From: Agaribacillus aureus
Lineage (GTDB): Bacteria > Bacteroidota > Bacteroidia > Cytophagales > Cyclobacteriaceae
Length of the DNA stretch: 64,000 nucleotides
Assembly: GCA_030442055.1 (NCBI GenBank)
Contig: JAUJEB010000005.1
Span: 558,001-622,000 of the forward strand
Direction of reading: 5' to 3'
The position numbers and the translations under genes were made by a program. A model generated the notes under the pieces. That model searched no databases, was not told where the DNA came from, and saw nothing but the letters and a program-made list of their open reading frames with translations. Below are positions 19,986-39,790 of this stretch, one piece after another; the stretch's first letter is position 1; every line of letters begins with the position of its first letter.

Positions 19986-19991
19986 TTTTAC

Positions 19992-23399: not shown

Positions 23400-24308
23400 T
23401 CACTCACCATGAGAAGGCTGTCTCTCAGCAGTTTTGGCACCATCATGATTTATGCAATCATATTGATGATACCATAAGTCATAAATAAGTCTCATCATAT
23501 CTTCATTGGAAACAGGTGAGGCATTTGTATGTGAGCGCTCGGAAAAACTGTTGAGCTTTTCAAGTTGACAAAAAAGTTCGAACTCCTCTGTAGAATAGTG
23601 TTCCACAATGCTCCGCAGGTGTTTAGGATTTATATTTCCCTGATTAAAATGATTTTTGTCAAAAAGCTCCGACACTTTTGTTTTTAGCTTAAATTCAAAT
23701 TTTGTGTTTATCATTTCCAACACCTTTCCGGGATTGGCAATAAAGTCATCGATATTGATCAGCAAAGATTTGTCCGGGTTTCTTAAAGAAAATTTTAACA
23801 GGTTTTTGTTGTAGAACTTCCATGTCTTGAGGGCAAGCGTTGGGCTACTCACAAAGATTTCATCGGTGTGTCTTCTGAAAAGAGAATCTACCACTTCCCA
23901 GGGTGCGCGATAAATAAACAGATAGCAGGCATCGGGCAATAAAGCCTGCCAGAAATCGAGAAAGAGCGTGGTCCGTGGATCCTTCCATCCCCAGTATAAA
24001 TGGCTGTTTGCAGCAATAATTTTCCTGGCAATGTCTGCGTATTGTTCTTGGTAAAGTATGGTTTGTAGATCCCACCCATCAGGGTGAAGTTTGTTTTCCT
24101 CAAGGACATTTCGGTGAAATTCCAGAAAATCCATATTTTCAAAATGTCCTTTTAAATTACCAACCGTCTCTCCCAGCAGTTGATTGCCGATAGATAACCC
24201 TGCAGCCTGTAGCAACGAAGCGCCAAGCGAAGTTCCGGAGCGGTGCATGCCGGTAATAATAAGACATTTGTTGTTCGGGATATCCATTTCATGAGGGTTA
24301 TAATCCAT
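23400..24308 (-). CDS. Sulfotransferase-family protein
   Basis: A 302-residue protein of the PAPS-dependent sulfotransferase superfamily. The 5'-phosphosulfate loop is visible as ITGMHRSGTS (18-27), and the middle part has WGWKDPRTTLF and LFIYRAPWEV, the strand pattern in which these enzymes bind the 3'-phosphate. It would transfer a sulfate group to a hydroxyl of a sugar or small molecule. It lies 18 bp behind a GT2 gene, at the end of a minus-strand operon with an FtsX permease, so the acceptor is probably the glycoconjugate made by this cluster (inference). Confidence 0.8.
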   Translation of the reverse strand: MDYNPHEMDIPNNKCLIITGMHRSGTSLGASLLQAAGLSIGNQLLGETVGNLKGHFENMDFLEFHRNVLEENKLHPDGWDLQTILYQEQYADIARKIIAANSHLYWGWKDPRTTLFLDFWQALLPDACYLFIYRAPWEVVDSLFRRHTDEIFVSSPTLALKTWKFYNKNLLKFSLRNPDKSLLINIDDFIANPGKVLEMINTKFEFKLKTKVSELFDKNHFNQGNINPKHLRSIVEHYSTEEFELFCQLEKLNSFSERSHTNASPVSNEDMMRLIYDLWYHQYDCINHDGAKTAERQPSHGE

Positions 24309-24326
24309 AAGATAATAGCGTTTGAT

Positions 24327-25238
24327 CTACGGAATATCCTGTAACAATTTTAAGATGATTTCATTTAAATCCACCAACCCATTGTCATAGTTTTCCACGC
24401 ACAGCTTGGTTTCCAGCATATTAAATTTATGGTGAAGGTAAAGCAAATTCCGGTAACCTTCCCTTTTCCGTTGCTCCTGATCTTTAAAGTGAGGGTAATG
24501 AATGGACAGGGCAGTTCTCAGGAGGCAGATCTGAACATCGTCCTGGTACAATCGGATACCAAGATCGTTGTCTTCCACCCCCCACCTGCCATCGTAGGCT
24601 TCATCAAATAAACCGATCTTCACTATGTCTTCAGTCGAAACAGATACGTGGCATGTCCAGAAATAATACCAGGGAGCGGGCAAATTTTCAATCTTGTAAT
24701 TATACTTCCTGTAATGTTTGTCCCTGACATCCCGAAACTGAGGACTTTTTTCCAGCTGCCTGATGGAGTAAACAGGATCGGAAGGAACAATCAGATCCTT
24801 CAATAAAGTATTTGACTTTTGGTGATGATCAAATCCATAAACATAACCAATAGCTGATTTCCTGTAAATTTTAGTCCTGTGAAACCGGATGTGTTCCGCC
24901 ACACAATCCACATGCAGAATTACCCCTGCATCAATGAACAAGCAAACATTGCCTGCTGATCGCCTTATGGCATTATTTCTGGCGGAAGCCACGCGATAAC
25001 CTCTATCTTCCTGATATACGTATTTTAAATTCAGCATGTGCTCATATCTGCTTATCATGCCCCGGGTATGGTCGGATGAACCGTCGTCACTGACAATTAC
25101 TTCAAACCGCCATGGTTCTATTTGCTGAAGACACAACGAATCGAGCGTGTACTGAAGCAACTGGCTTCGGTTGTAGGTGGGGATAATCACTGAGATCTCA
25201 TATTTATTTGATGAACCGCTCATGTGTTTATCAAGCAT
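24327..25238 (-). CDS. GT2-family glycosyltransferase
   Basis: A 303-residue GT-A enzyme. The N-terminal nucleotide-sugar fold starts with ISVIIPTYNR (15-24) and carries VSDDGSSDHT, then FIDAGV in the place of the DxD metal site. The C-terminal part has WGVEDNDLG, the acidic motif typical of galactosyltransferase-like C-terminal domains. It is closely similar in layout to the glycosyltransferase at 30863-31753, so the two may be paralogues. It lies 34 bp after the FtsX permease and 18 bp before the sulfotransferase. Confidence 0.88.
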   Translation of the reverse strand: MLDKHMSGSSNKYEISVIIPTYNRSQLLQYTLDSLCLQQIEPWRFEVIVSDDGSSDHTRGMISRYEHMLNLKYVYQEDRGYRVASARNNAIRRSAGNVCLFIDAGVILHVDCVAEHIRFHRTKIYRKSAIGYVYGFDHHQKSNTLLKDLIVPSDPVYSIRQLEKSPQFRDVRDKHYRKYNYKIENLPAPWYYFWTCHVSVSTEDIVKIGLFDEAYDGRWGVEDNDLGIRLYQDDVQICLLRTALSIHYPHFKDQEQRKREGYRNLLYLHHKFNMLETKLCVENYDNGLVDLNEIILKLLQDIP

Positions 25239-25271
25239 GGATCCAAAAAAACATCAATACATAGCCGGAAT

Positions 25272-27689
25272 TCATTCATGTCGCAAAGAGGATATCGGAT
25301 TTGTAACTACCTCTTTTAAGGTTACAGAACCCGTGGTTAAAAGGATAATGGGTATCAAAATAAACATTGGCGTTAAAAATACCAGCAGGTTTAAGTCGGT
25401 CCGGAAATTATAGTTTTGCAGCCAATTCTCTAGTATCAAATAGGAAATGGGGGTGGCTACCACAAATGAGATTAAGATCAGATATACATAATTTCTGGAA
25501 AAATGCCCAAGAAGACTGCCGGTAGAAGCACCCAATACACGCCTGATCCCGATTTCCCTGCGCTTCAGAACAATCAGGTAATAAGTTAAGCCAAACAGGC
25601 CAAGACATGAAATAAAAATTGCAAATAAAGAGGAGAAAATAAACACCTTTCCGTATGACTCTTCCTTGGCATATTGACGGCCAAAAAATTCATCCAGGAA
25701 ATAATAATCCATAGGTGATTGGGGAAAATATTGCTCCCAGACATCTTCAATCTGTGCAATGACTCCTGAAATATCATTACCGTGTAACTTTATCGACACA
25801 TATTTATATGGTATCCAACTGAAATCAGGCGAAATAAAAACCATGATTGGGGTAAAGGGATTTTCAAGGGAGGTTTGGTGGAAATTTTCCAGAACCCCGA
25901 TAATGGAGAATTTTTTATTGCTGGTTTCAAGGTAAACGTGCCTTTGCATAGCTTCGTCAACGCTTTCAAACCCCAATGACTCCATACTTTCCTGATTGAT
26001 CAGAATGGCCGTTTCATCGGCTGGAAAGTCTCTGGAGAAATTCCGGCCTTTTAAAATTTTCAGACCATAGGTATCAAGATAATCGTAATCTGTCCTAAGC
26101 ATTTCATACAGCCTATTTTTATCCTCGCCTACCCTTTTGTTGGAAAGAAACATTCCTACCTCTTGCCCGGGTACGGAACTGGAATATGTCAATGTCTTTA
26201 CCTGAGAATTGCGAAGTACACTATGCTTAAAATTTAGCAGGTCATCAGCATAATTTTTGGTCGAGACCGGCGCATTGATGATTATTGTTTGATCTGTGGC
26301 AATACCTGTTTCATGTGTTTTCATAAACTGGACCTGCTTATAAATCAGAAAAGTTACGCTGATCAGGATCATCGAGCCTGTCAATTGAAAAGTTATAAGC
26401 GTTCTCCTTAGCATGTTCCCCCTTAAGGAATTTTTCACATCACCTTTTAAGCCCTCTACCGGCTTAATGGAAGAAAGCACCAGGGCCGGATAAAGCCCCG
26501 ATATAAGTATTCCAGCGCCCAACATCAGCAATAAAATCAAAACAGACTCAAGCGAAAAATTCAGTGGAATTATAAGACCAGGTAAGTAATCCCCAAGCCA
26601 TAATTCTGCCACAAGTACTATGAATACCGAGATAACCGCTGCCAGCAAGCTTAGTAGCAGTGACTCAAACAAGAACTGTAGTATCAAACGTGATTTTTCG
26701 ACGCCGGCAATTTTTCTCAAACCCACCTCTTTTATCCTTTCAATACTTTTAATGGTACTGAGGTTAGTATAATTAATCCAGGCGATAATCATTATCAGCA
26801 ATGCCATGGCCCTCATAAACCAGACAGCCCTATAACTTCCTTTCACCTCTACCTCCTTTCCTTTCCAGGCATTTAAGTGAATATCCTTTATAGGGGTTAG
26901 CTCCACACCCCAGGTAAGGTCTTTTAGCGCCTCAAGTGTTTTATATTTTTCCGCCAAAGCAGGGAAATCCTTTTCGATGTAGTCTGCATTAGCCGGTGAT
27001 GGTAACGCGATATAGGTATAGGCAGCATGCTTGTACCAGAACTGATCCATAGCTTTCCAATGACTGGCAACAGTGGCCCATGAATAAATGATGTCATAGT
27101 GCAGGTGGGAATTCACCGGGAAATCCTGAAAGACGCCTGTAATCTCACAAATATAAGTGCGGCTGACATCGCTCAGTTTAAGCGTCTTTCCAATAGGATC
27201 AGTATTCGCAAAATACTTTTTTCTGTAAGATTCGGAAATTACTACCGTATTGGGTTCTTGCAAGGCATGCACAGGATCACCTTGCAACAGGGGAAAAGAA
27301 AACATTTGAAAAAATGAGGCATCGGCGGCTACCACATTTTTCTCGCGATATTTTATATCCTCGTACTGCACCACTTTTTCGCTATTCCATAGCCATATTC
27401 TCGTCATATCCAGTATTTCAGGGTATGCATCTTTCATAGCCATACCATACCCGGTGGAACTTGTAGCCCAATCATCTGTAAGCTCATTATTTTTGAAAAA
27501 CTGGCTTTCTACCCGGTAAATCTGGTCTCCCTGACTGTGAAAGTCATCATAACTCAATTCAAAGCTTACAAATTGCGAGATAATCAGAAATACGGCCAGA
27601 CTAAGGCTTAAACCAAAAATATTGATCAGTGAAAAACTTAAATTCTTGGTCAATGCACGGTAGGCAATAATCAGATGGTGTTTAATCAT
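25272..27689 (-). CDS. FtsX/MacB-type ABC transporter permease
   Basis: An 805-residue permease of the MacB/FtsX type common in Bacteroidota: an N-terminal membrane span (about 18-42), a periplasmic MacB-like domain, a core of three spans, then a second periplasmic domain and a final FtsX core of three spans (RRREIGIRRVLGAS-type signature KRREIGIRRVLGAS). It couples ATP hydrolysis to mechanical work in the envelope, but no ATP-binding partner gene is adjacent, so it is an orphan that would borrow an ATPase encoded elsewhere. It heads the operon with GT2 and sulfotransferase genes. Confidence 0.92.
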   Translation of the reverse strand: MIKHHLIIAYRALTKNLSFSLINIFGLSLSLAVFLIISQFVSFELSYDDFHSQGDQIYRVESQFFKNNELTDDWATSSTGYGMAMKDAYPEILDMTRIWLWNSEKVVQYEDIKYREKNVVAADASFFQMFSFPLLQGDPVHALQEPNTVVISESYRKKYFANTDPIGKTLKLSDVSRTYICEITGVFQDFPVNSHLHYDIIYSWATVASHWKAMDQFWYKHAAYTYIALPSPANADYIEKDFPALAEKYKTLEALKDLTWGVELTPIKDIHLNAWKGKEVEVKGSYRAVWFMRAMALLIMIIAWINYTNLSTIKSIERIKEVGLRKIAGVEKSRLILQFLFESLLLSLLAAVISVFIVLVAELWLGDYLPGLIIPLNFSLESVLILLLMLGAGILISGLYPALVLSSIKPVEGLKGDVKNSLRGNMLRRTLITFQLTGSMILISVTFLIYKQVQFMKTHETGIATDQTIIINAPVSTKNYADDLLNFKHSVLRNSQVKTLTYSSSVPGQEVGMFLSNKRVGEDKNRLYEMLRTDYDYLDTYGLKILKGRNFSRDFPADETAILINQESMESLGFESVDEAMQRHVYLETSNKKFSIIGVLENFHQTSLENPFTPIMVFISPDFSWIPYKYVSIKLHGNDISGVIAQIEDVWEQYFPQSPMDYYFLDEFFGRQYAKEESYGKVFIFSSLFAIFISCLGLFGLTYYLIVLKRREIGIRRVLGASTGSLLGHFSRNYVYLILISFVVATPISYLILENWLQNYNFRTDLNLLVFLTPMFILIPIILLTTGSVTLKEVVTNPISSLRHE

Positions 27690-27916
27690 GGGGTAGCGCT
27701 GTTGATAAATGTATAAATATGGAAAATACCAATAGTGATTTTGTGCTTAACCAGATTGGGACATTTAATTTTACCCGTCAACCACAATAACCAGATTTAT
27801 ATCAAGAAAAAATTAATATGAAATATAACCGTTTGCTGGGATTATTTTTTATTTGTAAATGAAAATATTTTCAGCCGGAAGCATTTTAGGCATTTACTTT
27901 CCAAATTAAAACCCCC

Positions 27917-29317
27917 ATGAAGCAAAAGACTTCATTTGACAACCTTTTGTTTGCATGGTTTTACGATCATGTCACCCGCAATCAGGAAGAGCCTTATTTG
28001 ACTTATAAGGGTACAACCCTATCATACGGTGACGCTTTCAACATAATCAGGAAAGTTATACATATCATCTTAACCAATACCGCTGCTCACGGCCATCCCA
28101 GTGTTGCTCTGTACTTTCAGGATCAGCAAAAACTCTTATTATCTTTTTGGGCATGTATGGCGCTGGAGGTAGACGTGATACTGGTTCCGGAAAGGCCTGT
28201 TGCGTTGGAAGGCTTAAGATATAAAGACCAGAAACTGGAGATCGACCTGGTACTTTCCGACCTGTTGCAGGGTTCGAATTGCTACGATATCGATACCAGG
28301 CCTGAAAACTCGCCGGCATCATTGCAATTGGATAGCCCGGCAAGGTCAGGGTCAAAAAATATTTACTTTTTTACCAGTGGCACCACCGGGAAAGCCCAGC
28401 TTGTCCGAACCACCGGCCATCAGTGGCTTCGAGCTATTACCTGCTTACGGGAAAATTCCCTGATGCCATATACCGTCGGTCAAAAAGCGCTAATAACCGT
28501 GCCATTATTCCATTCCTACGGACTCAGTGCCGCAGTGGAATATACTGTTGGGGGAAGTCATATTTTTTTGCCTGGCCATAGAGAAAGCATCGGCCCGGTT
28601 CAGTGTTTATTCGACAAATCGATAGGTCATCAGATCACAGCCATAGAAGGGGTCCCCTATTTTTATCAACAGATGTCCCTTTTCTTAAATCGATTGTCAC
28701 TGCCGGCATTAAAGCATATAGGCATGGGAGGAGATTGTGTCACCGATAAGCTGATCAGTAAATTTGAGCAAAAAATAGCAAGCCCTACTTTTTCAATTCG
28801 ATACGGCATAACAGAAATTCCTTCTGCAGTGAGTATTCATTATTTTGACTATAACCCCGGGATTTGCTTGCGCTCCCTGGGTAAGATCCTTCCTATTTAT
28901 CAGGTAAAATTGTTAAATGAAAAGCAGGGCACAGGTGAAACCAGTGGAGAAATGTTGGTGGGGTGCCAATATCTGCCGGATCAATTCATTGACATTCACA
29001 CACATGATATAATAGAAATGATCCAGGGGGAGATAAAATTTGAGGGGAGAAAAATATTCATCAAATACAAGGGATACAAAATAAACCCCCAGGAAATTGA
29101 ATATCACCTCAACAATCTCAATAATGTTTTTGAATCAAAAGTACATTTATCTAATGGTGTGCTGAGGGCCGAAATTGTACCGGTTGCGAATACTATTCCG
29201 GAGTTAAAGGTTCTCAGGACTTCTCTTGCCCAAAAACTACCCAAAGAATTTTTGCCTGAACGCATTGAATTAGTTGAAAGTATCCAACGCAATACCGTCG
29301 GTAAAATAATCAGATAA
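27917..29317 (+). CDS. Free-standing AMP-forming ligase (adenylation-domain-like)
   Basis: A 466-residue enzyme of the ANL (acyl-CoA synthetase / NRPS adenylation) superfamily. The phosphate-binding motif A3 is FFTSGTTGKA (151-160), A5 is YGITE (296-300), the usual TGD is changed to HTHD (361-364), and the C-terminal catalytic lysine lies in NTVGKIIR (K463). The hinge GRKIFIKYKGYKINPQEIE is present. It would activate a carboxylic acid as an acyl-adenylate and load it on the acyl carrier protein at 39536-39790 (inference). It is short for this superfamily but has both subdomains. An acyltransferase gene follows on the same strand. Confidence 0.88.
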   Translation: MKQKTSFDNLLFAWFYDHVTRNQEEPYLTYKGTTLSYGDAFNIIRKVIHIILTNTAAHGHPSVALYFQDQQKLLLSFWACMALEVDVILVPERPVALEGLRYKDQKLEIDLVLSDLLQGSNCYDIDTRPENSPASLQLDSPARSGSKNIYFFTSGTTGKAQLVRTTGHQWLRAITCLRENSLMPYTVGQKALITVPLFHSYGLSAAVEYTVGGSHIFLPGHRESIGPVQCLFDKSIGHQITAIEGVPYFYQQMSLFLNRLSLPALKHIGMGGDCVTDKLISKFEQKIASPTFSIRYGITEIPSAVSIHYFDYNPGICLRSLGKILPIYQVKLLNEKQGTGETSGEMLVGCQYLPDQFIDIHTHDIIEMIQGEIKFEGRKIFIKYKGYKINPQEIEYHLNNLNNVFESKVHLSNGVLRAEIVPVANTIPELKVLRTSLAQKLPKEFLPERIELVESIQRNTVGKIIR

Positions 29318-29412
29318 CCACTTTTTTTCTTTTGCAAAAATTGATACTTTGATGCTGCCGATATTGAAGATAATCCCTGTGCTGCGCGCGAGTTGGTATA
29401 AAACCTTAAGCT

Positions 29413-30087
29413 TTGAATATATTTACCATTTTTTCCCGGCTGAATTTCAACACTCTGTACTTTAATTTCAAATATTTTCCTTTTCGCAAGGCTATCTTGT
29501 TGCCGGTATGGGTCAGCAAACGTTGCCACCTCGCCAAATGTGAGGGACAGATAGCTATTGAAGCACCACTAAAGACTGGCCTTATTCAAATTGGATTTGA
29601 GAATATTGGGATTTTTGACAGAAAAAGATCGCGAAGCATTTGGAAGGTAAGTGGCAGTATCGTCTTTCACGGTGCCGTAAAAATAGGACATGGGTGTAAA
29701 GTAAATGTTGGCAGGCAAGGCCATCTGTCCATCGGGAAAAATTTTTATATGCCTTCGGAATCTACTATTGTTTGCCATAAAGAAATCGAGATTGGAAATG
29801 ACTGTGCGTTTTCATGGGACATGCTGATGATGGATACAGATATGCACGACATCACCGATGAGCACCAGCAAGTAATCAATACACCTGCCAAAATCACGAT
29901 AGGTAACAATGTATGGGTGGGATGCAGAGTGATGATTTTGAAGGGAGTGATCATCCCGGCTAATAATATTGTGGCCGCAAACGCGCTGGTAACCAAGCCT
30001 TTTACAGGAGAAAAACAGATTATAGGGGGAAATCCGGCAAAGGTGATCAAGCAACACGTTTCCTGGAATCATGATTTTCTACATTGA
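29413..30087 (+). CDS. Hexapeptide-repeat acyltransferase
   Basis: A 224-residue left-handed beta-helix acyltransferase, related to serine/sugar O-acetyltransferases. Hexapeptide turns are visible (IGHGCKVNVG, LSIGKNF, IEIGNDCAFS), with the catalytic-type histidine in DMHDI and the C-terminal VIIPANNIVAANALVTK and GGNPAKVIK. There is no ATG in a suitable place: a stop lies just upstream and the frame begins at TTG 29413, which gives the typical family start (LYFNFKYFPFRKA). It probably acetylates or acylates a sugar of the cluster's product. It follows the ligase gene by 95 bp. Confidence 0.82.
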   Translation: MNIFTIFSRLNFNTLYFNFKYFPFRKAILLPVWVSKRCHLAKCEGQIAIEAPLKTGLIQIGFENIGIFDRKRSRSIWKVSGSIVFHGAVKIGHGCKVNVGRQGHLSIGKNFYMPSESTIVCHKEIEIGNDCAFSWDMLMMDTDMHDITDEHQQVINTPAKITIGNNVWVGCRVMILKGVIIPANNIVAANALVTKPFTGEKQIIGGNPAKVIKQHVSWNHDFLH

Positions 30088-30143
30088 TAAAACGGTCCGG
30101 CAACCCGTATCGGCAGTAATCTTCCGGCCTGCTCAGGTCAAAA

Positions 30144-30857
30144 TTATTTTAGGAATTTGGCTTTAGGAAAATCTTCATCGTTCATCGTAATTTTTTGATC
30201 AAAACGTTGATTAAATGTATCCAACTCGTCTTTGGTGTATCGTTTGTAAAGATTATCCTCAAGTCCAATAAGCGTACGACTACCACCACCAATATGATCA
30301 ACTACACTGGAAGTCACCAGCATATGCTTTTCGCCCAGGCATTTTAACTGTTCAACTACCACATTATCGGAACACCAAAAGGTAAAGCTCTCATCCATTT
30401 TACCGATTTGTTCATAAAGTGATCTTTCCCATAGAAAAGCCCACCCACAAAATAATTTGTAAACTTCATAACCAATGATTACTCCTGAATTACGCGTTAT
30501 TTCATAATGCTTGGGGTGTGTATTCGGACAGAGAGGGGAGGCAGATCTGATTTTATGTTTCCGCATTGCGGCTATCAACGTCCGGTCCCAGCCCTCCTCA
30601 AAGAGGATATCATTATTTCCGAAAAAGATATAATCTGACTCACAATATCTTGCGCCGATATTCAGATAACGGTTGTAATTAAATGGGACCTCCGGGTGTA
30701 ATGTAGTAGCCCCCTCGTATTCAACATCCAGATTTGACTCTAAAACTATCACACGGTGAGGAGTGGCCGATCGCACCGCCCCCATGGTAAGTTTCATTAA
30801 ATCATCGCATTTGGCATCTGAAATAAGAATAATGTCAATGGTATGGTTCATGTACAA
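30144..30857 (-). CDS. GT2-like glycosyltransferase
   Basis: A 237-residue protein of the GT-A type. The start (IDIILISDAK, then VIVLESN) is a degenerate nucleotide-sugar fold, FGNNDILFEEGWD supplies the acidic metal site and FWCSDNVVVEQL resembles the catalytic-base helix of GT2 enzymes. It lies 5 bp behind another glycosyltransferase on the same strand and ends an operon that begins with the condensation-domain gene. A sugar or small acceptor cannot be named from sequence. Confidence 0.75.
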   Translation of the reverse strand: MYMNHTIDIILISDAKCDDLMKLTMGAVRSATPHRVIVLESNLDVEYEGATTLHPEVPFNYNRYLNIGARYCESDYIFFGNNDILFEEGWDRTLIAAMRKHKIRSASPLCPNTHPKHYEITRNSGVIIGYEVYKLFCGWAFLWERSLYEQIGKMDESFTFWCSDNVVVEQLKCLGEKHMLVTSSVVDHIGGGSRTLIGLEDNLYKRYTKDELDTFNQRFDQKITMNDEDFPKAKFLK

Positions 30858-30862
30858 TTTAA

Positions 30863-31753: not shown

Positions 31754-31754
31754 A

Positions 31755-33122
31755 TTAAAAAAATCGGTTAAGAGATTTAATGGTGGCGTTCGGATTATCA
31801 ATAAATTCCTGCAAGATCAGCGAATGAACATGGCCGATGCGCTCAATAATATCACGGGTATAAATCTCGTGATGATAACAGTACCGAAAAGCAAAACCAT
31901 TTTTGTATTCACAAACCGTATGCGCAAAAGAGTAATATCCTTTATGCGGCTTATGAAGATAATTATCGATAGAAGTGCTTATATCTTTGTTTTTATCAAA
32001 CTCGAGGTAATTATAGTAAAACTCACATTTCCTTCGCAGGTCAAAAGGGCCGATGCGGCGAAAATCAAATATTGGATAACGGCATGACTGAAGAAATCCC
32101 AGATAAATGGGCATTAGCACATCCTTTAGCGTCATATCAGGGTTTATTTGTCCCTTTATAAAAACGTTGCACGCCAGATTGCCGATGATTTGTCTGGTGG
32201 CCGATTTGTTCCTTCCATTTACCGTACATATCATCAACATCTTTTCAAGGCCAAAGCACCTGTTGACACTTAGCATAAAACACGACAACAGAATGGAGGG
32301 CAAGCTGACCCCGTGTGTTTCTGCCGCCTCGTACAATGCCTGTTTATCTTCAAATACGGTGGTATACTTCAACCACGTGGCCAGGTCCATGGTATCTTTG
32401 GCGCGGGCGATAGCTTCTTTGGTCGGGACCAGCCCGGTGTTTGATCGTGAAAAATTGCTGTAAAGCTTTGAGTGTTCAACAGGAGATAAATACTCACCCA
32501 AAATTTTGTTCCAATAGCCATATAGTTTATCCCCATAACGCCCATTTAACTGGTCATTTTCCTGCAGCAGATATTCTTTCAAATGCATTTCCAACGGGGA
32601 CAAAGGAATTGGCAAACCCTCTTTTAAAGCCTCATAAGCCATCTCCAATTCCTCGCTGAAAATTGTTAGAGAAAAAGCATCGGAATTAATGTGATGGCAG
32701 GCAAATAAAAAAGTATATCGATCCGCTGACCTTTGAAACAAAAAGCCCTGGGCAAGTGTCCCACTGGTGAGGTCTGTAAAATCTGTCATGATCCGATCCT
32801 GAGCCTGCTCAATAGCTTTTTCCTGATTCCGTGGATCGAGATGCGAGATGTCTTGAAAGGGTAAATAAAACTTTTCGGAAGAAAATGGCTGTATCTTTTG
32901 TTTTACGCTTCCGTCTATCAGCGTAAAAATGGTTCTTAGGCTCTCATGCCGCTGAAAAAGAAAAGCATAAGCTTCTTTAAAATGAGCAATCGACAGATCG
33001 GTATATTCTTCGACATATTGGTTGACCTCCAGTTTGGCCTTCTTTTTTAATAACTCCCGTTGAAATATCCAATCAGATTGCTGCCTGCTGAACGCATCAA
33101 AAATAATCGGTTCCCTTATCAT
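31755..33122 (-). CDS. Free-standing NRPS condensation-domain protein
   Basis: A 455-residue stand-alone condensation domain. The family layout is clear: RHESLRT (58-64) early, then the active-site motif in ACHHINSDAFS (HH 143-144, D148), and a C-terminal WLKY-type latch region. The canonical HHxxxDG has alanine at 149 in place of glycine; the catalytic second histidine is kept. It would form an amide or ester between a carrier-bound acyl group and an acceptor. It lacks fused adenylation and carrier domains, which are encoded separately in the same cluster (ligase at 27917, ACP at 39536). It heads an operon with two glycosyltransferases. Alternative: a related acyltransferase of the same fold. 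Confidence 0.85.
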   Translation of the reverse strand: MIREPIIFDAFSRQQSDWIFQRELLKKKAKLEVNQYVEEYTDLSIAHFKEAYAFLFQRHESLRTIFTLIDGSVKQKIQPFSSEKFYLPFQDISHLDPRNQEKAIEQAQDRIMTDFTDLTSGTLAQGFLFQRSADRYTFLFACHHINSDAFSLTIFSEELEMAYEALKEGLPIPLSPLEMHLKEYLLQENDQLNGRYGDKLYGYWNKILGEYLSPVEHSKLYSNFSRSNTGLVPTKEAIARAKDTMDLATWLKYTTVFEDKQALYEAAETHGVSLPSILLSCFMLSVNRCFGLEKMLMICTVNGRNKSATRQIIGNLACNVFIKGQINPDMTLKDVLMPIYLGFLQSCRYPIFDFRRIGPFDLRRKCEFYYNYLEFDKNKDISTSIDNYLHKPHKGYYSFAHTVCEYKNGFAFRYCYHHEIYTRDIIERIGHVHSLILQEFIDNPNATIKSLNRFF

Positions 33123-33262
33123 ATCTGGTGGCTGTTTCCAATGGACTAAAAACTAAAAATAACATTTATCGGCATATGTTGATAGTGCATTTGGTAAAAT
33201 TTAATCGCCAGCTTTACACTTTTTTCCGTGGCATTCTTTCTGTACATTAGAAGCTCGGCTTT

Positions 33263-33296
33263 TTTGAATAAGAAGATATGAATATTTTTAAGTTTG
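33263..33296 (+). promoter_or_regulatory. Bacteroidota-type promoter candidate
   Basis: TTTG (33263-33266) and TAAGTTTG (33289-33296) match the -33 TTTG and -7 TAnnTTTG elements of Bacteroidota housekeeping promoters, with slightly long spacing (22 bases). The site lies 19 bp before the ATG of the pyruvyl-transferase-like gene and would give a very short leader. Confidence 0.4.
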
Positions 33297-33315
33297 CGGC
33301 AAAAAATGAACAATA

Positions 33316-34368
33316 ATGATCGGAATTTTAACATTTTTTCAATGCTACAACTATGGTGCCTACCTGCAGGCATACGCTTTACACAAATATTTAAAACAAA
33401 AGGGTTATGATAATGAATTTATCAACTACAGAAGCAAATTGAGTGAAAAAAATGAATACCGTCATTTGGTCACCGTCGATGGTAAAAAAAGTGGTGCCTA
33501 CTTTCGCATCCTGCTAAAAATGCTCAGGTTTAAAATTTATCACAGAAAGCTTAAAAAAACCAAAAGATTTTATCATTCCGAAGATCTTAATACAATTCAT
33601 TACCAAACGGTGTTGGTGGGTAGCGACCAGGTGTGGTGTTATACCAGGGAGTGGGGAGGATTTGACCCGGTATACTTTTCTTACGGCATAAATGCCCGTA
33701 AGATCATTGCCTATGCCGCCAGCATGGGACCGGACAATTACGACCGGGAGCATCCTGAAGTGATTAATTCACTAATGAAAAATTTTGACAGCATTGGCGT
33801 AAGAGATACCAACACCTTCCAATTTGCCAGGCTCTTTTCCGGCAAAGATCCTCAAATCGTTTTGGACCCGGTTTGTTTGTATGACTTTGAAAAAGAATGT
33901 AAAGAAACCACACTGGAACCGTATATATTATTTTATTCAGACGCATTAACTCCTTCAGAGACAGTTATTGATGAATTACAGCGGACGGCAAAAGAACAAG
34001 GCTTAATGCTGGTCTCTCTGGGGAAAAAATTTTCCTGGTGTGATACCAACATCCTGTCGGCCTCCCCCTTTGAATGGCTAGGTTACATTAAAAATGCGCA
34101 ATTTATAATGACCTGCATGTACCACGGCCTGCTCTTCTCAATCAAATACAGGAGGAATTTCGCTGTATTTCTGAATGAACATCGCAAAAATAAATGCCTG
34201 GATTTTTTAGAAAATGCCGGGCTGACAGACAGGGTGATAGATCGTGAAACAAAATTTGCAGCTATTTTTGCTTCGCCTATAGATTATACCCGGGTACAAA
34301 AATTTCTGGACAAGAAAAGAAAAGCTTCGGAGGTTTTCCTGGACAACTGCCTGAAAGATCATGGTTAA
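33316..34368 (+). CDS. Polysaccharide pyruvyl transferase-family protein
   Basis: A 350-residue protein of the polysaccharide pyruvyl transferase family (CsaB/WcaK-like fold, GT-B-related). It begins with IGILTFFQCYNYGAYLQAYAL, carries VGSDQVW (about 98-104), a DPVC loop and TCMYHGLLF, the family's active-site histidine region. Members attach pyruvate ketals to sugars of surface polysaccharides, using phosphoenolpyruvate; the substrate here is not known. Its end overlaps the ABC exporter start by 8 bp, so both are translated together, suggesting decoration before export. Confidence 0.85.
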   Translation: MIGILTFFQCYNYGAYLQAYALHKYLKQKGYDNEFINYRSKLSEKNEYRHLVTVDGKKSGAYFRILLKMLRFKIYHRKLKKTKRFYHSEDLNTIHYQTVLVGSDQVWCYTREWGGFDPVYFSYGINARKIIAYAASMGPDNYDREHPEVINSLMKNFDSIGVRDTNTFQFARLFSGKDPQIVLDPVCLYDFEKECKETTLEPYILFYSDALTPSETVIDELQRTAKEQGLMLVSLGKKFSWCDTNILSASPFEWLGYIKNAQFIMTCMYHGLLFSIKYRRNFAVFLNEHRKNKCLDFLENAGLTDRVIDRETKFAAIFASPIDYTRVQKFLDKKRKASEVFLDNCLKDHG

Positions 34369-36115
34369 TCCCTATCTCCACATGTTTCGGACCGCTCGTT
34401 ACTATGCCGGTTCCAAGCGCAACAAACATCTGGTGGTACTCATAATGTTCGTTGCAGCGAATGTTATAGCAACTGTGAATCCGCTGTTGTACGGTTGGTT
34501 TATTAACAAACTGCAATTGGAGGGCACAGCCATTATCTATCATGCATGGTTGTATGCCCTGGCTTATCTCGGCCTGAACTTACTACAGTGGTCACTTTAT
34601 GGTCCGGCCAGGATCATGGGCCGCCATTTGGCGTTTGAGGTAAGCAAAAATTATTTATGCGAACTCCACCACCACGTGATACGGCTTCCGCTTAAGTGGC
34701 ACACCAACAATCATAGCGGGGCAACTATTAGCCGGATTACAAAGGGGTATGAGGCATTGAAAAACTATTATCAAAATGACTGGCTTTATGTAAAGGCCAT
34801 CTGCAATTTTCTTTTCTCTGTGATAGCCATGGTCTACTTCTCTCCCCTTTTCGGAAGCATTGGTGTTTTGCTGGGGTTTCTGGCCATGTTTGTCATTTTC
34901 AAGTTTGACGCTGCCTACTTCAAGGCAATGAAAGATACCAACGAGCGGGAAAACGAAGTGTCTTCATCATTGCTCGACAGCATCTCCAACATCATTACAG
35001 TGGTGTCCTTGCGCATTGAAAAACAAATGGAAAATAATGTTTTGCAAAAGGTGATGTTGGTTTTACCGGCCTTTAAAAGAAAAGTTAAAATAAACGCCTT
35101 GAAATGGTTTTTGGCAGATATACTGATAACACTGATCTATATTTCAATCGTAGTCGGCTATGTTTACCAAAACTACCAGGTAGGTCAGACTTTTTTAATT
35201 GGCGGTCTGGTCACGCTCCTTGTTTATGTAAACAGATTCACCGGTGTATTTAACGACATGGCCTGGTTGTTTTCAATGATACTTGAGCAGAGTGCTAACG
35301 TAAAAAACGCTGAGGTTATTCAGCAAGCGGCAAAACAATCACCTTTTTCGGAACATGAGATGCCTAAGGTGAAGGAATGGAAAACCATTAACCTGAAAAA
35401 TATCAACTTTTCATATCATGGCAACACTGTCAACGGTAAAAATATCAGGAACCTACAGTCAATAAACCTGACAATTCATAGCGGCCAGAGGATCGCCCTG
35501 ATAGGGAAAAGCGGAAGCGGAAAGAGTACTTTATTGGCTTTGTTCAGGGGGCTGTTTGGCGGCGGCTACAGCCTTGATATCAAAATCGATGATAAAGACT
35601 TTGGGGATCACCTAAAAATTCTTGCGGACCAGACAACCTTTCTTCCACAGGAACCTGAAATATTTGAGAATACTATCCTATACAATCTTACCCTGGGATT
35701 ACCATTCGAAAAGGAAGATATCGACCTGGCCTGTAAACTGGCCAGGATAGATGAAGAAATTAATGTACTTCCGAAGGGTATCCATTCAAACCTGAAAGAA
35801 AAAGGAGTGAACCTCTCCGGCGGGCAAAAACAACGGCTGGCGCTGGCCCGCGGATTGCTTATGATGCAAAATAGCCGGATCGTGTTGATGGATGAACCCA
35901 CCAGCAGCGTGGATCTGAAAACCGAAAATACGATTTTCGATAGTATTTTCAATAAGCTGAAAGGGAAAACCATAATCGCCAGTATTCATCGGCTGCACTT
36001 GCTGGAGAAGTTCGATTATGTTTATATTTTGCAAGAAGGCCAGCTGGTCGATGAAGGTACGCCACATCATTTGACAAACCACAGCAGCATATTTAAGGAA
36101 CACAGCGCCAAATAG
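34361..36115 (+). CDS. ABC exporter, fused membrane and ATPase domains
   Basis: A 584-residue half transporter. The membrane domain (about 20-310) has about six spans; the ATPase (about 340-575) has Walker A GKSGSGKST (382-390), a Q-loop near LPQEPEIF, signature LSGGQ (485-489), Walker B IVLMDEP (507-513) and switch histidine H543. All catalytic elements are intact. It would work as a homodimer exporting a lipid-linked or small-molecule product. There is no C39 peptidase domain, so it is not a double-glycine peptide maturation exporter. Overlap with the pyruvyl-transferase-like gene shows coexpression. Confidence 0.94.
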   Translation: MVNPYLHMFRTARYYAGSKRNKHLVVLIMFVAANVIATVNPLLYGWFINKLQLEGTAIIYHAWLYALAYLGLNLLQWSLYGPARIMGRHLAFEVSKNYLCELHHHVIRLPLKWHTNNHSGATISRITKGYEALKNYYQNDWLYVKAICNFLFSVIAMVYFSPLFGSIGVLLGFLAMFVIFKFDAAYFKAMKDTNERENEVSSSLLDSISNIITVVSLRIEKQMENNVLQKVMLVLPAFKRKVKINALKWFLADILITLIYISIVVGYVYQNYQVGQTFLIGGLVTLLVYVNRFTGVFNDMAWLFSMILEQSANVKNAEVIQQAAKQSPFSEHEMPKVKEWKTINLKNINFSYHGNTVNGKNIRNLQSINLTIHSGQRIALIGKSGSGKSTLLALFRGLFGGGYSLDIKIDDKDFGDHLKILADQTTFLPQEPEIFENTILYNLTLGLPFEKEDIDLACKLARIDEEINVLPKGIHSNLKEKGVNLSGGQKQRLALARGLLMMQNSRIVLMDEPTSSVDLKTENTIFDSIFNKLKGKTIIASIHRLHLLEKFDYVYILQEGQLVDEGTPHHLTNHSSIFKEHSAK

Positions 36116-36156
36116 ACCTATCTCTAAAACTTGCAGTCCTATAAAGATCCCGCCCT

Positions 36157-37203
36157 CTATTTCATATTAGCTGGAACTTGTTCCTGTAAATCAGACAAAT
36201 GAGCAAACACCTGTCCAATGTGATAAAACTCATTTGCTCCGGTCAACGGAATTTCCAACACCATAAGATCCAGGCCATGCTGTAAAAAATCGTGTATGGT
36301 TTTAGCCACCTCTTTGTAACTGCCTACCAGGTACGGGACGTCGCTGTATCCACTGGCGAAGGGGATCAGATTGTAGGTTCCGGCAACCATATTTTTCGAT
36401 TTTTCCAGTAACTCTTTTTTCCATACAACCGCCGATTTCCTGGTAGTTAATTGTTGCAGACTCTTTTTTTGTTGATCTTCAGGGCAATACACTGATAAAG
36501 CTTCGGTTGCTGTCTCCGTATCTGCCCTGCCGAGGATTCCAAAATGAAATCCGAGACGGTAGGTTTTCATGAGGTTCAGGGCCTTTAAATCATCCAGCGG
36601 CATAGCCATGGCAAGGCGGGTTGCACCGGTATTATTGATGACGTCCAAAGCGGCTTCAGAGTTACCGGCAATAAAGTTTCGGGGAAGCAAAGACGCTTCC
36701 AGTCTTTGAGGAAGTGACAGGTTTTTAACCTGATAAAATTTACCTTCATAAGTTACGTCATCCTCTCCCAAAAGCCTGTTAACAATTTGAAGGTATTCCA
36801 GCAATCTCAGATATTTGGCATCATGCGTCTCCGTATCGCCCAAACTCCTGGCATCAAAGAGCCCTGTTCCGGTGATGTAATTAAGATATAAGGGTTTACC
36901 CGAGAAAAGAGAAATATTGGCAATGTACTTGGCCGTATAAAACGGATGTGCATATACCGGGTTGACCGCAATAAATGGGTGAAGCTTTCTTGCCTGATGC
37001 GACACCATATCAGCAAAAAACCAGGGATTTAGCAGACCTTCATTGGATTCTGGAAGCAAGATACCATGGTATCCATAGGCTTCGGAATTTGCAATAAACT
37101 CCTCAACGCTTCTGTAAATAGCATTATCCGGGTCCTGGTGTTCTCTTTTGATCCCCAACAGGTTAAATACAGGAATGAATTTTCCGTTAAAAGTAATATT
37201 CAT
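36157..37203 (-). CDS. Luciferase-like flavin-dependent monooxygenase
   Basis: A 348-residue TIM-barrel enzyme of the bacterial-luciferase (LLM) class, similar in outline to alkanesulfonate monooxygenase and to LLM oxidases in peptide clusters. Recognisable parts are EAYGYHGILLPE (near residues 40-52), KLHPFIAVNP, YLNYITGTG, the EGKFYQVKNL segment (about 143-152) and ARLAMAM-type flavin contact near 195. It likely hydroxylates or oxidises a carrier-bound intermediate using FMNH2 from a separate reductase. It is the last gene of the minus-strand operon that begins with the ACP. Confidence 0.85.
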   Translation of the reverse strand: MNITFNGKFIPVFNLLGIKREHQDPDNAIYRSVEEFIANSEAYGYHGILLPESNEGLLNPWFFADMVSHQARKLHPFIAVNPVYAHPFYTAKYIANISLFSGKPLYLNYITGTGLFDARSLGDTETHDAKYLRLLEYLQIVNRLLGEDDVTYEGKFYQVKNLSLPQRLEASLLPRNFIAGNSEAALDVINNTGATRLAMAMPLDDLKALNLMKTYRLGFHFGILGRADTETATEALSVYCPEDQQKKSLQQLTTRKSAVVWKKELLEKSKNMVAGTYNLIPFASGYSDVPYLVGSYKEVAKTIHDFLQHGLDLMVLEIPLTGANEFYHIGQVFAHLSDLQEQVPANMK

Positions 37204-37274
37204 GTTAGTTTGAGCTCTGATGGTTGATGCTGAAATACAATTAATTCCGGTTATAAATTATCTGGTAGTTCTGC

Positions 37275-38450
37275 CTACACGCCGTTGGAATATAACAATT
37301 CACATTTGGAGCAGATAGGCATAAGGGTATTATTATGTGTGGCTCTGAACTTTTTGAAATCTTCTCCATGCCAGACCGACTTGAGAGATTGCCCTTTCAT
37401 GTTACCTACCACAAATTCAGGGAATTTTTTGCAGGGAACTACGTTTCCGTTGGGCATTAAATCGATCCTGTTGGATATACTCAAACATCTTGACCGCTTT
37501 TCGCAAGGTGCATTGGCGCCTTCGATAAATCCTTTGATTTCCGAATCCTCCAGATCTGGCTGAAAGCGGATGCGTATGTTCCACTTTCTGTCTTTTATTT
37601 TGGCCATTTGCTCCAGAAGGTCATTTCTTAAGGTGGGATTTAAATGGAAGTCAAATGAATGCCACGAATTTTTGGCTCCTTGACCCGTATTCATCCAGCT
37701 AAAATGATTATTGAAGAATCGGTCCATATCACAGGCCGTTTCATGATCGATAAACCATGGAAAATTAAAATACAACGTGTCGATACCCAATTCCTCAAAA
37801 TAGAGACAGGTTTCATACAATTCGGGAATCAAGTCGTCACTCAACACGCCTGCTACCGAAATAAATCCTTTGTAAATTCCAGCTTTTTGCAGATCTATCA
37901 AGGCCTGAATGTTGTCGATTGTTTTGCGAAAAGTGTTTTTTCCTCGCAATTTATCATGGATCTCATCCAATCCTTCGATACTGACAAGCATGGTTAGGCA
38001 GTCTGAAATGCGAATCAAGGAATCGAGCTCTCTTTTAATAAGTAACCCATTCGTACAGATTACCGTTTGCCTTGGATCATTAGCCAATAATTCGATAAAT
38101 TCCTCCCAGTAGCCGTAGATCATTGGTTCCCCTCCCCACACATATAAGTGAGACTTTACTTCCGAGGTTTCAGCAAGTAGTCTCCTGACAATTTCTATGT
38201 CCAGATCCCCGGCTTTTGCCAGCTCTCCTTTGCCCAAATGATTATGATAGCCTTCTTCATTCCATTGAAAACAATGTGTACATCTGAGGTTGCAACGATT
38301 GGAGAGCTTTAGTCCAATTTCCTGCGGAATATCCATAGCATAAGCCGGATCTTTATCTCGTTCGCTATTACAAATCTTTGTAATATTCAATTTCTTTTGT
38401 AAACGTAATAGGGCTTCACTCCTGTAGGAAAGAGTAGTTTGTGGCTGCAT
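37275..38450 (-). CDS. Radical SAM / SPASM-domain enzyme
   Basis: A 391-residue radical SAM enzyme. The cluster-binding CxxxCxxC is C53-NLR-C57-TH-C60, and the C-terminal SPASM-type region has CEKRSRC, PCKKF and PICSKCELL, which would hold auxiliary Fe-S clusters. The GGEP-like motif is WGGEPMI. SPASM enzymes modify peptides or activate C-H bonds of small substrates; no obvious precursor peptide gene is adjacent, so a carrier-bound or sugar substrate is possible here. It lies between the MurG-like glycosyltransferase (10 bp away) and the LLM monooxygenase (71 bp away). Confidence 0.92.
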   Translation of the reverse strand: MQPQTTLSYRSEALLRLQKKLNITKICNSERDKDPAYAMDIPQEIGLKLSNRCNLRCTHCFQWNEEGYHNHLGKGELAKAGDLDIEIVRRLLAETSEVKSHLYVWGGEPMIYGYWEEFIELLANDPRQTVICTNGLLIKRELDSLIRISDCLTMLVSIEGLDEIHDKLRGKNTFRKTIDNIQALIDLQKAGIYKGFISVAGVLSDDLIPELYETCLYFEELGIDTLYFNFPWFIDHETACDMDRFFNNHFSWMNTGQGAKNSWHSFDFHLNPTLRNDLLEQMAKIKDRKWNIRIRFQPDLEDSEIKGFIEGANAPCEKRSRCLSISNRIDLMPNGNVVPCKKFPEFVVGNMKGQSLKSVWHGEDFKKFRATHNNTLMPICSKCELLYSNGV

Positions 38451-38460
38451 GAGTCAAGTA

Positions 38461-39546
38461 TTAAAAATCGGCAATAAAGGTTAAAACAAAATCAGGAAGA
38501 TTATTCCTTAAGATAGTGATATTCTTATGGAATCTTATCAATAGTTCGGAACTAAAATCATTTTTTTTCCAAGTCTCAAAAGAGGCACCAATTTTCAATT
38601 CATCGATTAATTTCTGATTACCCGCCTCGTTAGATCCCATCGGTTCCAGGTAAATGAAGGGGGTCGCAGTAATAACGGCGTCCAGAAGAGTCATACCTCC
38701 CGGCTTTGAAATCACCGCCTTGCAATCACTCATTAGTTTTAAGGGGACGTGATGATCGGCAAATTGCATATATTCTTTTATATGGCCGGACCTGATTTTA
38801 GCCAACGGCGGAAATGCTGGGGCGTCATCTTTGTTTTCCAGTGGATCCCAGCGGGCGTCACTTACATAAAACTCAGTGCGATTATCACGTGGATCGTAGC
38901 CGGACATATCCTTTAAAATAACTTTTCGCTGATATCCCTTGGTGGTAACCTCCTGTGTCTTTGTTATATAATCTCCCAATCCCCAACCACCTCCATGTAT
39001 GAGCAACTTATTTGGCCGATTCATAAAATCTGTCGGACTCAAAGAAGGTATATTCAGCGTATAGTTGACCTTGCCGGCTTCAAGGTCAAAAAAATAATAG
39101 GTTTTCCCTATGGCAATGTCATTTCTATTGAGCCAGGTGGGTGCATGCCCGGCATCCATCCGGCAGCACCGGATATTTTTATGGCCGGATAGCGTTTGGT
39201 AATCTTTTAAAACGTCAAACCACAAGCCGGAGAGACAAAGGAAATTCGACACCTGCTTCCTATCCCACTCCTGATATAAAGTCTGCACTGCGGCAGGATC
39301 GAGGCCAGGTGCATAATCAATGGGCATTTTAGTCGCTAACTGGGCTAATCTAAAGTTGCCTGCAAAAGCGCTTTTTGTTTCTTGAAAAATCTTCCTTTTG
39401 TCTTGATTTAGCAAACCCTCGATAATATAGCAATCAGAGGGTACTCCCATTGCTGTCAACTGGCTCTGAACAATTTTAGCCGGTACATATACGCCGTATC
39501 CAAGAGCGGAGGTTAAAATACTTATGGGACCTGGTTTAGATGACAT
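38461..39546 (-). CDS. MurG-like GT-B glycosyltransferase
   Basis: A GT-B glycosyltransferase of about 361 residues. The N-terminal half begins with ISILTSALGYGVY, the C-terminal half has SKPGGMTLLDAVITATPFIYLEP, which is the nucleotide-sugar binding loop of the MurG/GT28 type. The frame is open to 39591, but the ATG at 39546 gives a normal start and an 11-base overlap with the ACP stop instead of 56. It probably transfers a sugar to the carrier-bound or lipid-linked product. It sits between the ACP and the radical SAM gene. Confidence 0.82.
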   Translation of the reverse strand: MSSKPGPISILTSALGYGVYVPAKIVQSQLTAMGVPSDCYIIEGLLNQDKRKIFQETKSAFAGNFRLAQLATKMPIDYAPGLDPAAVQTLYQEWDRKQVSNFLCLSGLWFDVLKDYQTLSGHKNIRCCRMDAGHAPTWLNRNDIAIGKTYYFFDLEAGKVNYTLNIPSLSPTDFMNRPNKLLIHGGGWGLGDYITKTQEVTTKGYQRKVILKDMSGYDPRDNRTEFYVSDARWDPLENKDDAPAFPPLAKIRSGHIKEYMQFADHHVPLKLMSDCKAVISKPGGMTLLDAVITATPFIYLEPMGSNEAGNQKLIDELKIGASFETWKKNDFSSELLIRFHKNITILRNNLPDFVLTFIADF

Positions 39547-39790
39547 CCTTGTTCCCCTGCATTTCGAGAATAAAAGACTGTAATAATTCAAGCTTGTTGA
39601 AATATTTCAGATCCAGGGATTCTATGTTGATTTCTATATCAAAAGCTTCTTCAATTTTTACGATAAATTGCAAGAGGTCCAATGAGTTCAGGCCTAAATC
39701 AGTCATCAGGTCGCTCTGTTCATTCAAGGCGTCCGGAGAAACTTCCCTGGAAAGGACATCGCTTAAAATTTCTGCCAGTGTGTGTTTCAT
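39536..39790 (-). CDS. Acyl carrier protein
   Basis: An 84-residue carrier protein. The phosphopantetheine attachment site is S36 in the motif DLGLNSLDLLQF (31-42), and the acidic second helix (VKIEEAFDIEI) is typical. It is the first gene of a minus-strand operon with a MurG-like glycosyltransferase, a radical SAM enzyme and an LLM monooxygenase, so it likely carries the acyl or aminoacyl intermediate activated by the free-standing ligase at 27917-29317. No phosphopantetheinyl transferase is in the window. Confidence 0.93.
   Translation of the reverse strand: MKHTLAEILSDVLSREVSPDALNEQSDLMTDLGLNSLDLLQFIVKIEEAFDIEINIESLDLKYFNKLELLQSFILEMQGNKDVI

Follow-up and report, generated by a model that had tools for sequence, protein, structure and literature searches.

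Distribution of a gene cassette for a discrete acyl carrier protein, a GT-B glycosyltransferase and a radical SAM enzyme, represented in Agaribacillus aureus

We analyzed a stretch of 64,000 nucleotides from Agaribacillus aureus (hereafter the window; positions 558001–622000 of contig C32, in a genome of 9.39 Mb and 36 contigs), in which 14 genes at positions 23400–39790 had been interpreted, in a preliminary description made from the sequence alone, as a single non-modular system building and exporting an aminoacyl- or acyl-sugar product on a carrier. At the right end of this cluster, the genes for a discrete acyl carrier protein (ACP), a GT-B glycosyltransferase recognized from its predicted fold and a radical S-adenosylmethionine (rSAM) enzyme represent a conserved cassette, which also comprises an ATP-grasp ligase in most relatives and is widespread, a feature that had been missed. 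The 14 genes form five strand blocks. The block containing the cassette, on the minus strand, consists of a luciferase-like (LLM) flavin monooxygenase (36157–37203; PF00296, Bac_luciferase), the rSAM enzyme (37275–38450; PF04055, Radical_SAM, and PF13186, SPASM), the GT-B protein (38461–39546) and the ACP (39536–39790; PF00550, PP-binding, 41.9 bits), with gaps of 71, 10 and −56 bases between the open reading frames (ORFs). The phosphopantetheine site of the ACP lies in the sequence DLGLNSLDLL. The GT-B frame opens at a TTG at 39591, and its likely start is the ATG at 39546, which overlaps the end of the ACP gene. Pfam confirmation means here a match above the gathering cut-off of the family.

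To the left, on the plus strand, a PS_pyruv_trans-family protein (33316–34368; PF04230) is encoded by a gene overlapping by 8 bases that of an ABC exporter with fused membrane and ATPase domains (34361–36115; PF00664/PF00005); a 75-aa ORF at 33146–33373, which overlaps the start of the pyruvyltransferase gene and has no Pfam match, was treated as spurious. The next block, on the minus strand with inter-ORF gaps of 5 and −47 bases, comprises a weak family-2 glycosyltransferase (GT2b; 30144–30857), a second one (GT2c; 30863–31753, ORF to 31801; PF00535), whose likely ATG at 31753 directly follows the stop of the third gene, and a stand-alone condensation (C) domain (31755–33122; PF00668, 139 bits). 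An AMP-dependent acyl/aryl-type ligase (27917–29317; PF00501, AMP-binding) is followed on the plus strand by a hexapeptide-repeat acyltransferase-like protein (29413–30087; PF00132, 28.1 bits for a cut-off of 27, with WbbJ/WcaF-like matches below the cut-off). The leftmost block, on the minus strand, contains a sulfotransferase-family protein (23400–24308; PF13469, Sulfotransfer_3), a third family-2 glycosyltransferase (GT2a; 24327–25238; PF00535, Glycos_transf_2, and PF02709), a paralogue of GT2c with 43% identity, and a MacB/FtsX-like permease (25272–27689; PF12704, MacB_PCD, and PF02687), which is probably outside the system. The sulfotransferase, the hexapeptide protein and GT2b were assigned to the cluster from position alone. 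The inventory of the preliminary description (ACP, AMP-dependent ligase, C domain, rSAM, LLM, sulfotransferase, pyruvyltransferase, hexapeptide protein and ABC exporter) was borne out by Pfam. Among its four glycosyltransferases, two were confirmed by Pfam and one by its predicted GT-B fold, whereas GT2b reached only 19.8 bits with PF00535 (cut-off 23.3) and the protein at 38461–39591 has no Pfam family.

The absence of a megasynthase, also put forward previously, holds for the listed ORFs of the window (those running off its ends being unlisted): no fused nonribosomal peptide synthetase (NRPS) or polyketide synthase (PKS) was found among them, the adenylating, condensation and carrier functions are all on separate proteins, and the only two ORFs longer than 1000 aa encode a GH2 protein and a SusC-like one. 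Genome-wide, Condensation was matched 22 times, once in the cluster; of the 21 matches elsewhere, 13 are in open frames of more than 1000 aa. A scan for sigma-70-type promoters gave 41 sites in comparison with 50.2 in shuffled sequences, and terminators numbered 14 versus 18.8.

For the protein at 38461–39591, the NCBIfam match was only a trace, and the C-terminal part of its family matches the profile of processive diacylglycerol glucosyltransferase. Its predicted structure (mean pLDDT 88.4) gave 280 matches in the PDB at E ≤ 0.001 with Foldseek, the best at 9.2e-9, with macrolide glycosyltransferases and MurG at the top and TM values of about 0.4–0.6; on the basis of this modelled fold, the family is a GT-B glycosyltransferase. 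In the rSAM enzyme, residues C53, C57 and C60 and residues C322, C340, C380 and C383 are invariant in 15 sequences. SPASM domains are seven-Cys, double-cluster auxiliary domains, and four auxiliary Cys residues are the pattern of twitch domains, as in BtrN. The radical SAM/SPASM assignment of the preliminary description thus stands for the PF04055/PF13186 match but not for the auxiliary domain, which, despite the PF13186 match, has four Cys residues only and is of the twitch (BtrN) type; BtrN itself (PDB 4m7t/4m7s) was among the PDB matches of this part. An identification of this enzyme as a viperin-like defense protein was rejected, as the best PADLOC match (E 2.3e-13) spans only residues 47–186, the radical SAM core.

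Amino-acid-type adenylation domains carry an FDxS-type Asp. The window ligase lacks this residue, having PLFHSYG at the corresponding position, as does its counterpart in Sphingobacterium paludis, and in the PDB the window enzyme matches 2-succinylbenzoate-CoA ligases best. It therefore looks, from its sequence, like an acyl/aryl ligase rather than an alpha-amino-acid ligase, and the aminoacyl part of the product suggested previously is unsupported. The C domain has the HHxxxD motif of NRPS condensation domains intact, as HHINSDA (FACHHINSDAFSL), and the LLM enzyme resembles alkanesulfonate monooxygenases.

Single-protein searches identified few relatives in the lineage of A. aureus. With the C domain as the query (E ≤ 1e-20), 5 of 194 genomes of the order, including its own, were matched; in genome G096 the match is a stand-alone C domain (25% identity) adjoining a GT2 gene, and in the other three it lies in frames of more than 1600 aa. 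At 1e-25, three of 390 genomes of the family were matched: its own, G620 (476-aa frame) and G826 (3840-aa frame). With the rSAM protein, 7 of 196 family genomes were matched, that of A. aureus included (G620 at 42%, G641 at 40% and the other four at 23–35%). With the 38461 protein as a single query, two genomes among 395 from the phylum were matched, that of A. aureus and G501, the latter being the contig of a Chlorobiaceae metagenome-assembled genome (MAG) that also provides locus L073 below. The neighborhoods in G620, G641 and G501 proved to be alike, with an ACP, an ATP-grasp-like protein, a member of the 38461 family, an rSAM enzyme and a Gfo/Idh/MocA oxidoreductase (MocA, confirmed by Pfam in G620). 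A profile of the 38461 family matched only 3 of the 390 family genomes (G000, G620 and G641), and the cassette is therefore rare in the family.

The distribution outside the family was assessed with a profile of four rSAM proteins against one genome per species (84,980 species). The best 80 of at least 466 rSAM relatives were taken and split into 62 close loci (35–54% identity) and 18 distant loci, which served as controls. According to the record titles, 44 of the close loci are from Paenibacillus, several of them from one genome. The 18 others are Thermoflavimicrobium, two Clostridium, a Lachnospiraceae MAG, Nostoc, a Chlorobiaceae MAG and S. paludis, together with the actinobacterial loci (four Streptomyces and S. 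lycii, Streptantibioticus, Micromonospora, two Kibdelosporangium, Kribbella and Rhodococcus). The core cassette occurs in four phyla, or five if Chlorobiota is counted apart. Single BLAST queries with window or G620 proteins (E ≤ 1e-6) found the GT-B protein in 60/62 close loci, the ACP in 57/62 and the ATP-grasp protein in 56/62, and a MocA relative and a match to the window ABC exporter in 34/62 each. Profiles gave 60/62, 61/62 and 56/62 for the first three, against 1/18 for each in the distant controls; the single-query counts are cleaner, because some loci under test had gone into the profiles. All three control matches came from one Clostridia MAG, L098, where a full GT-B/ATP-grasp/ACP set surrounds an rSAM protein 27% identical to that of the window, a deeper branch of the cassette. 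The pairwise protein distances co-vary: r was 0.88 for rSAM-GT (n=63), 0.84 for rSAM-ACP (n=60) and 0.81 for GT-ACP (n=58), and 0.61–0.72 for the three pairs with the ATP-grasp protein (n=54–58; GT-ATP-grasp 0.72, n=58), with none of 999 permutations as high; L073, on the same contig as L033, was left out, and species relatedness contributes to these values. The ACP, GT-B and rSAM genes, with the ATP-grasp ligase gene, are thus a conserved and widespread cassette.

The ATP-grasp family of the relatives has a predicted peptide-ligase-type fold (mean pLDDT 91.2, best E 1.7e-20), shared with ATP-grasp peptide ligases (8ynd from Streptomyces, 3wvq/3wvr and BesA), and its G620 member has no Pfam match at 0.01. 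We know of no link between those peptide ligases and an ACP-GT-rSAM cassette. A profile of the family, run without a positive control, found no match at E 0.01 in the genome of the window. Six close loci also lack the ATP-grasp gene (L039, L047, L049, L088, L091 and L104). The AMP ligase profile matched 8/62 close loci, two of them weakly; this ligase occurs without the ATP-grasp gene in Nostoc (L091) and in the Paenibacillus loci L088 and L104, and with it in L087, L089 and L095. We propose that the AMP ligase is a substitute for the ATP-grasp loading enzyme of most relatives, although replacement is not the sole possibility, because some loci carry both ligases.

The AMP ligase family was found in three of the six genomes searched, those of the window, S. 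paludis and G096, and not in G620, G641 or G501 at 1e-10. G096 has consecutive genes for the ACP (51% identity), GT-B (37%), rSAM (61%), AMP ligase (33%) and LLM (48%) proteins, followed, as judged by eye, by a reductase-like SDR, a ketosynthase, a second ACP and a PPTase-like protein; a 44% identical homologue of GT2a adjoins its stand-alone C domain on contig L010. In S. paludis, the ACP (56%), GT-B (43%), rSAM (54%), AMP ligase (40%) and pyruvyltransferase (53%) genes are interspersed with others over about 27 kb. The pyruvyltransferase gene directly follows the AMP ligase gene and is itself directly followed by a gene for a NamZ-type exo-N-acetylmuramidase; both NamZ genes of this genome (60 and 50% identical, the former being the one after the pyruvyltransferase gene) lie among the cassette genes, and the genome of the window has three NamZ copies. 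In alignments, identities to these two genomes were 47–51% for the ACP (51 for S. paludis and 47 for G096), 54–61% for rSAM and 37–42% for the GT, in comparison with 25–33%, 39–45% and 27–31%, respectively, for G620, G641 and G501. The window rSAM protein paired with that of S. paludis in an rSAM tree without G096 (support 100/100), both being flagged as long branches.

The other genes around the core suggest that the offloading partners of the ACP product possibly differ between relatives. In G620, a stand-alone C domain (31% identical) is beside the core. The C-domain profile, which includes Streptomyces L083, matched 7/62 loci, all among the 11 actinobacterial ones, with a weakest E of 6e-8; L083 was the locus checked with Pfam, where its stand-alone C domain scored 133 bits (PF00668) and its LLM protein 141 bits. 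An LLM protein occurs in three close loci (L069, L079 and L083) and KAS III-like proteins in nine, one of which was checked, and G641 has, by eye, PKS/NRPS genes downstream from the core. BtrH-like proteins as general offloading enzymes in Paenibacillus are no more than a hint, since the family of 20 loci was named by eye and its representative, L046, has no Pfam match; among five candidates tested, three, from other families, fell short of the BtrH_N cut-off of 29.7 bits (18.7, 21.1 and 29.4), and two, including this representative, gave no match. The best match of the G620 ABC exporter in the genome of the window is the window exporter (524 bits vs 135 for the next). The MacB-like permease was dropped, because the permease next to the G620 cluster has six better matches elsewhere in the genome, the window copy ranking 7th of 100.

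Several further genes accompany the core. In 19/62 close loci (18 Paenibacillus and the Chlorobiaceae MAG; L047, L050, L053, L073, L079 and L087 are among them), a second rSAM gene, 22–26% identical, adjoins it, often with a MocA-type oxidoreductase. Genes for NAD-dependent epimerases/dehydratases are found in 14/62 (L039, L061, L069, L075, L079, L083 and others; two were checked), a hint at nucleotide-sugar supply for the GT-B step. The actinobacterial loci L071, L072, L075 and L083 share a gene near that of the GT-B protein, which in L083 encodes an APH-family phosphotransferase, possibly serving for self-protection or tailoring. Four plasmid records contain an rSAM relative, two from Streptomyces at 39% and two from Serratia at 26%.

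We interpret the window cluster as a stand-alone carrier-protein pathway building an unusual sugar-acyl unit, a reading to which we give an even chance. In a scheme of loading, glycosylation, radical remodelling, oxygenation and offloading, whose reactions, order, substrates and product we propose by analogy with known systems, the AMP ligase (or, in most relatives, the ATP-grasp ligase) would activate an acyl or aryl acid and load it onto the discrete ACP, and the GT-B enzyme would glycosylate the bound acyl group. The twitch rSAM enzyme might then oxidize the ACP-bound glycoside, or make a C-C bond or a ring rearrangement in it, with the auxiliary Fe-S cluster as the electron acceptor, and the LLM monooxygenase would oxygenate the ACP-bound intermediate. 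The stand-alone C domain would transfer the finished unit from the ACP to an amine acceptor, perhaps a sugar chain made by the GT2 enzymes. The product may be decorated with the help of the pyruvyltransferase, the sulfotransferase and the hexapeptide enzyme, and the ABC protein would export it.

Compared by enzyme types, the logic of the cassette has precedents in mitomycin and pactamycin. In the early mitomycin pathway, AHBA is activated by MitE and, while carried by the ACP MmcB, glycosylated by MitB; formation of a C-C bond has been proposed for the rSAM enzyme MitD (PMC8621148). The same set, an AMP-dependent acyl/aryl ligase, a discrete ACP, an ACP-dependent glycosyltransferase and an rSAM enzyme, has its counterparts together in the window, the acceptor of the GT-B enzyme being the putative element, but His-tagged MitB is about 33 kDa (PMC8621148), whereas the window GT-B protein has about 361 residues. 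The pactamycin cluster (PtmI, PtmK, PtmS, PtmJ, PtmC and others) contains PKS genes, a glycosyltransferase gene and several rSAM genes, and a title in the reference list of that source concerns modifications of ACP-bound glycosylated polyketides (PMC13402214). It shares with the cassette the glycosyltransferase and rSAM enzymes, and the KAS III-like genes of some relatives, but there is no ketosynthase among the genes at 23400–39790. The butirosin side chain (BtrI, BtrJ, BtrK, BtrO and BtrH) is made by ACP-bound chemistry with the flavin monooxygenase BtrO (PMC2922099). Like butirosin, the window combines ACP chemistry, a flavin monooxygenase and a twitch rSAM enzyme (BtrN), but its 14 genes include no BtrK-type PLP decarboxylase or BtrH family member and have a C domain instead. 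No published account of the cassette, and no described cluster with the combination of the window, as stated previously, was found in a search of open-licence papers, mostly by title, subscription papers being outside its scope.

We further suggest, more tentatively and at somewhat less than an even chance, that the ACP/ligase/GT-B/twitch-rSAM set is a portable, undescribed module present in at least four phyla (five with Chlorobiota apart). It would make a glycosylated, radically rearranged acyl unit on the carrier and serve different downstream machines (C domain, KAS III, PKS/NRPS, glycan loci and perhaps BtrH-like acyltransferases), the loading enzyme (ATP-grasp or AMP ligase) being exchangeable.

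Several observations weigh against these interpretations. The cluster alternates between strands in its five blocks, with the AMP ligase about 10 kb from the ACP, and the GT-B acceptor could be other than an acyl-ACP. The gene combination of the window is not fixed among relatives: in G096 the C domain and GT2 genes are on another contig than the core, so their linkage to it is unproven; no C domain or LLM gene was seen in the stretches fetched from S. paludis; and in G620 neither an AMP ligase anywhere in the genome nor an LLM close to the core was found. L047 and L049 have no GT-B or ATP-grasp gene within the compared stretch, and no AMP ligase was seen there. The 62 loci are not independent, because 44 are from Paenibacillus and some share a genome, and the profile counts have the overlap with tested loci mentioned above. 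Co-conservation of at least eight genes, which the preliminary description had taken as the sign of a single system, was not found in any relative: S. paludis has six such genes if NamZ is included, G096 has five together, with a C domain and a GT2 gene on the other contig, and G620 has five (ACP, GT-B, rSAM, C domain and ABC exporter). The acyl-sugar part of that proposal, a non-modular assembly on a carrier, is nevertheless supported by the uninterrupted run of ACP, GT-B, rSAM, AMP ligase and LLM genes in G096 and by the relatives of the C domain and the ABC exporter that flank the G620 core.

Surface-glycan decoration is the main rival explanation, because the S. paludis and G641 cores adjoin a shared glycan block (a flippase-like protein with 48% and GT4-like proteins with 32, 36 and 44% mutual identity, the roles being assigned by eye). 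In this case, the cassette would supply an acyl or aryl group with which an exopolysaccharide or capsule is decorated. The GT2 enzymes would build a lipid-linked glycan to which this group is transferred from the ACP, and pyruvate and sulfate would be added as well. An initiating sugar-transferase-like protein, again by eye, is encoded near the S. paludis core, and exopolysaccharide and capsule loci commonly contain members of the PS_pyruv_trans, hexapeptide and sulfotransferase families. However, the 14 genes do not constitute a Wzx/Wzy locus, as there is no flippase, polymerase or initiating transferase among them and there is an ABC exporter; likewise, ABC-2 exporter genes follow the core in many Paenibacillus (gene cluster 4 in 37/62 loci and clusters 5 and 6 in 34/62 and 32/62, respectively). 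We consider this explanation rather unlikely.

It is improbable that two systems merely adjoin each other, with a core (ACP, GT-B, rSAM, LLM and AMP ligase) next to an unrelated glycan or lipid set (sulfotransferase, GT2 proteins, C domain, pyruvyltransferase and ABC exporter). The strand alternation would fit such an arrangement, as would the occurrence of GT2a relatives (E ≤ 1e-50) in three other genomes out of 380, two of which (G698 and G735) gave no match in the family-wide GT-B search, but relatives of the second set accompany the core in G620 (C domain and ABC exporter) and the AMP ligase in S. paludis (pyruvyltransferase), and in G096 the genes for the C domain and GT2 are neighbors. 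About as improbable is the reading of the preliminary description, in which all the listed genes cooperate and an amino acid activated by the ligase becomes part of an aminoacyl-sugar conjugate: the C domain, ACP and separate ligase would be compatible with it, and amino acids may serve in relatives, as their ATP-grasp enzymes resemble peptide ligases, but the window ligase looks acyl/aryl, no relative of the sulfotransferase, hexapeptide protein or GT2b was seen in the compared loci, and no convincing co-conservation was found for the MacB-like permease.

The remainder of the window contains other systems. Directly to the right of the cluster, a polysaccharide utilization locus (39973–61475) contains NamZ, GH2, GH95-like, fucosidase and SusC/SusD genes; its first gene, on the plus strand (39973–41196; PF07075/PF20732), encodes the NamZ-type enzyme and is possibly associated with the cluster. 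A Hen1-type methyltransferase with a ligase-associating region, followed by Pnkp (kinase, phosphatase and ligase), forms a bacterial RNA repair pair at 2938–6916. The protein encoded at 18055–19176 starts with a TIR-like region and has a transmembrane segment (by eye), and its gene is followed by those of a LytTR response regulator and a TPR histidine kinase (19263–21866).

To our knowledge, the known examples of ACP-bound glycosylation followed by radical chemistry are confined to a few antibiotics of actinobacteria, mitomycin and pactamycin among them. If the portable carrier-protein module proposed here is correct, the ACP adjoining the GT-B family adjoining the rSAM enzyme would provide a sequence handle for finding a class of products, and a small enzyme set would be available for studying the radical SAM step in vitro. 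Carrier-bound glycosylation followed by radical chemistry would then be a general route, used in Paenibacillus, actinomycetes, clostridia, a cyanobacterium and Bacteroidota.

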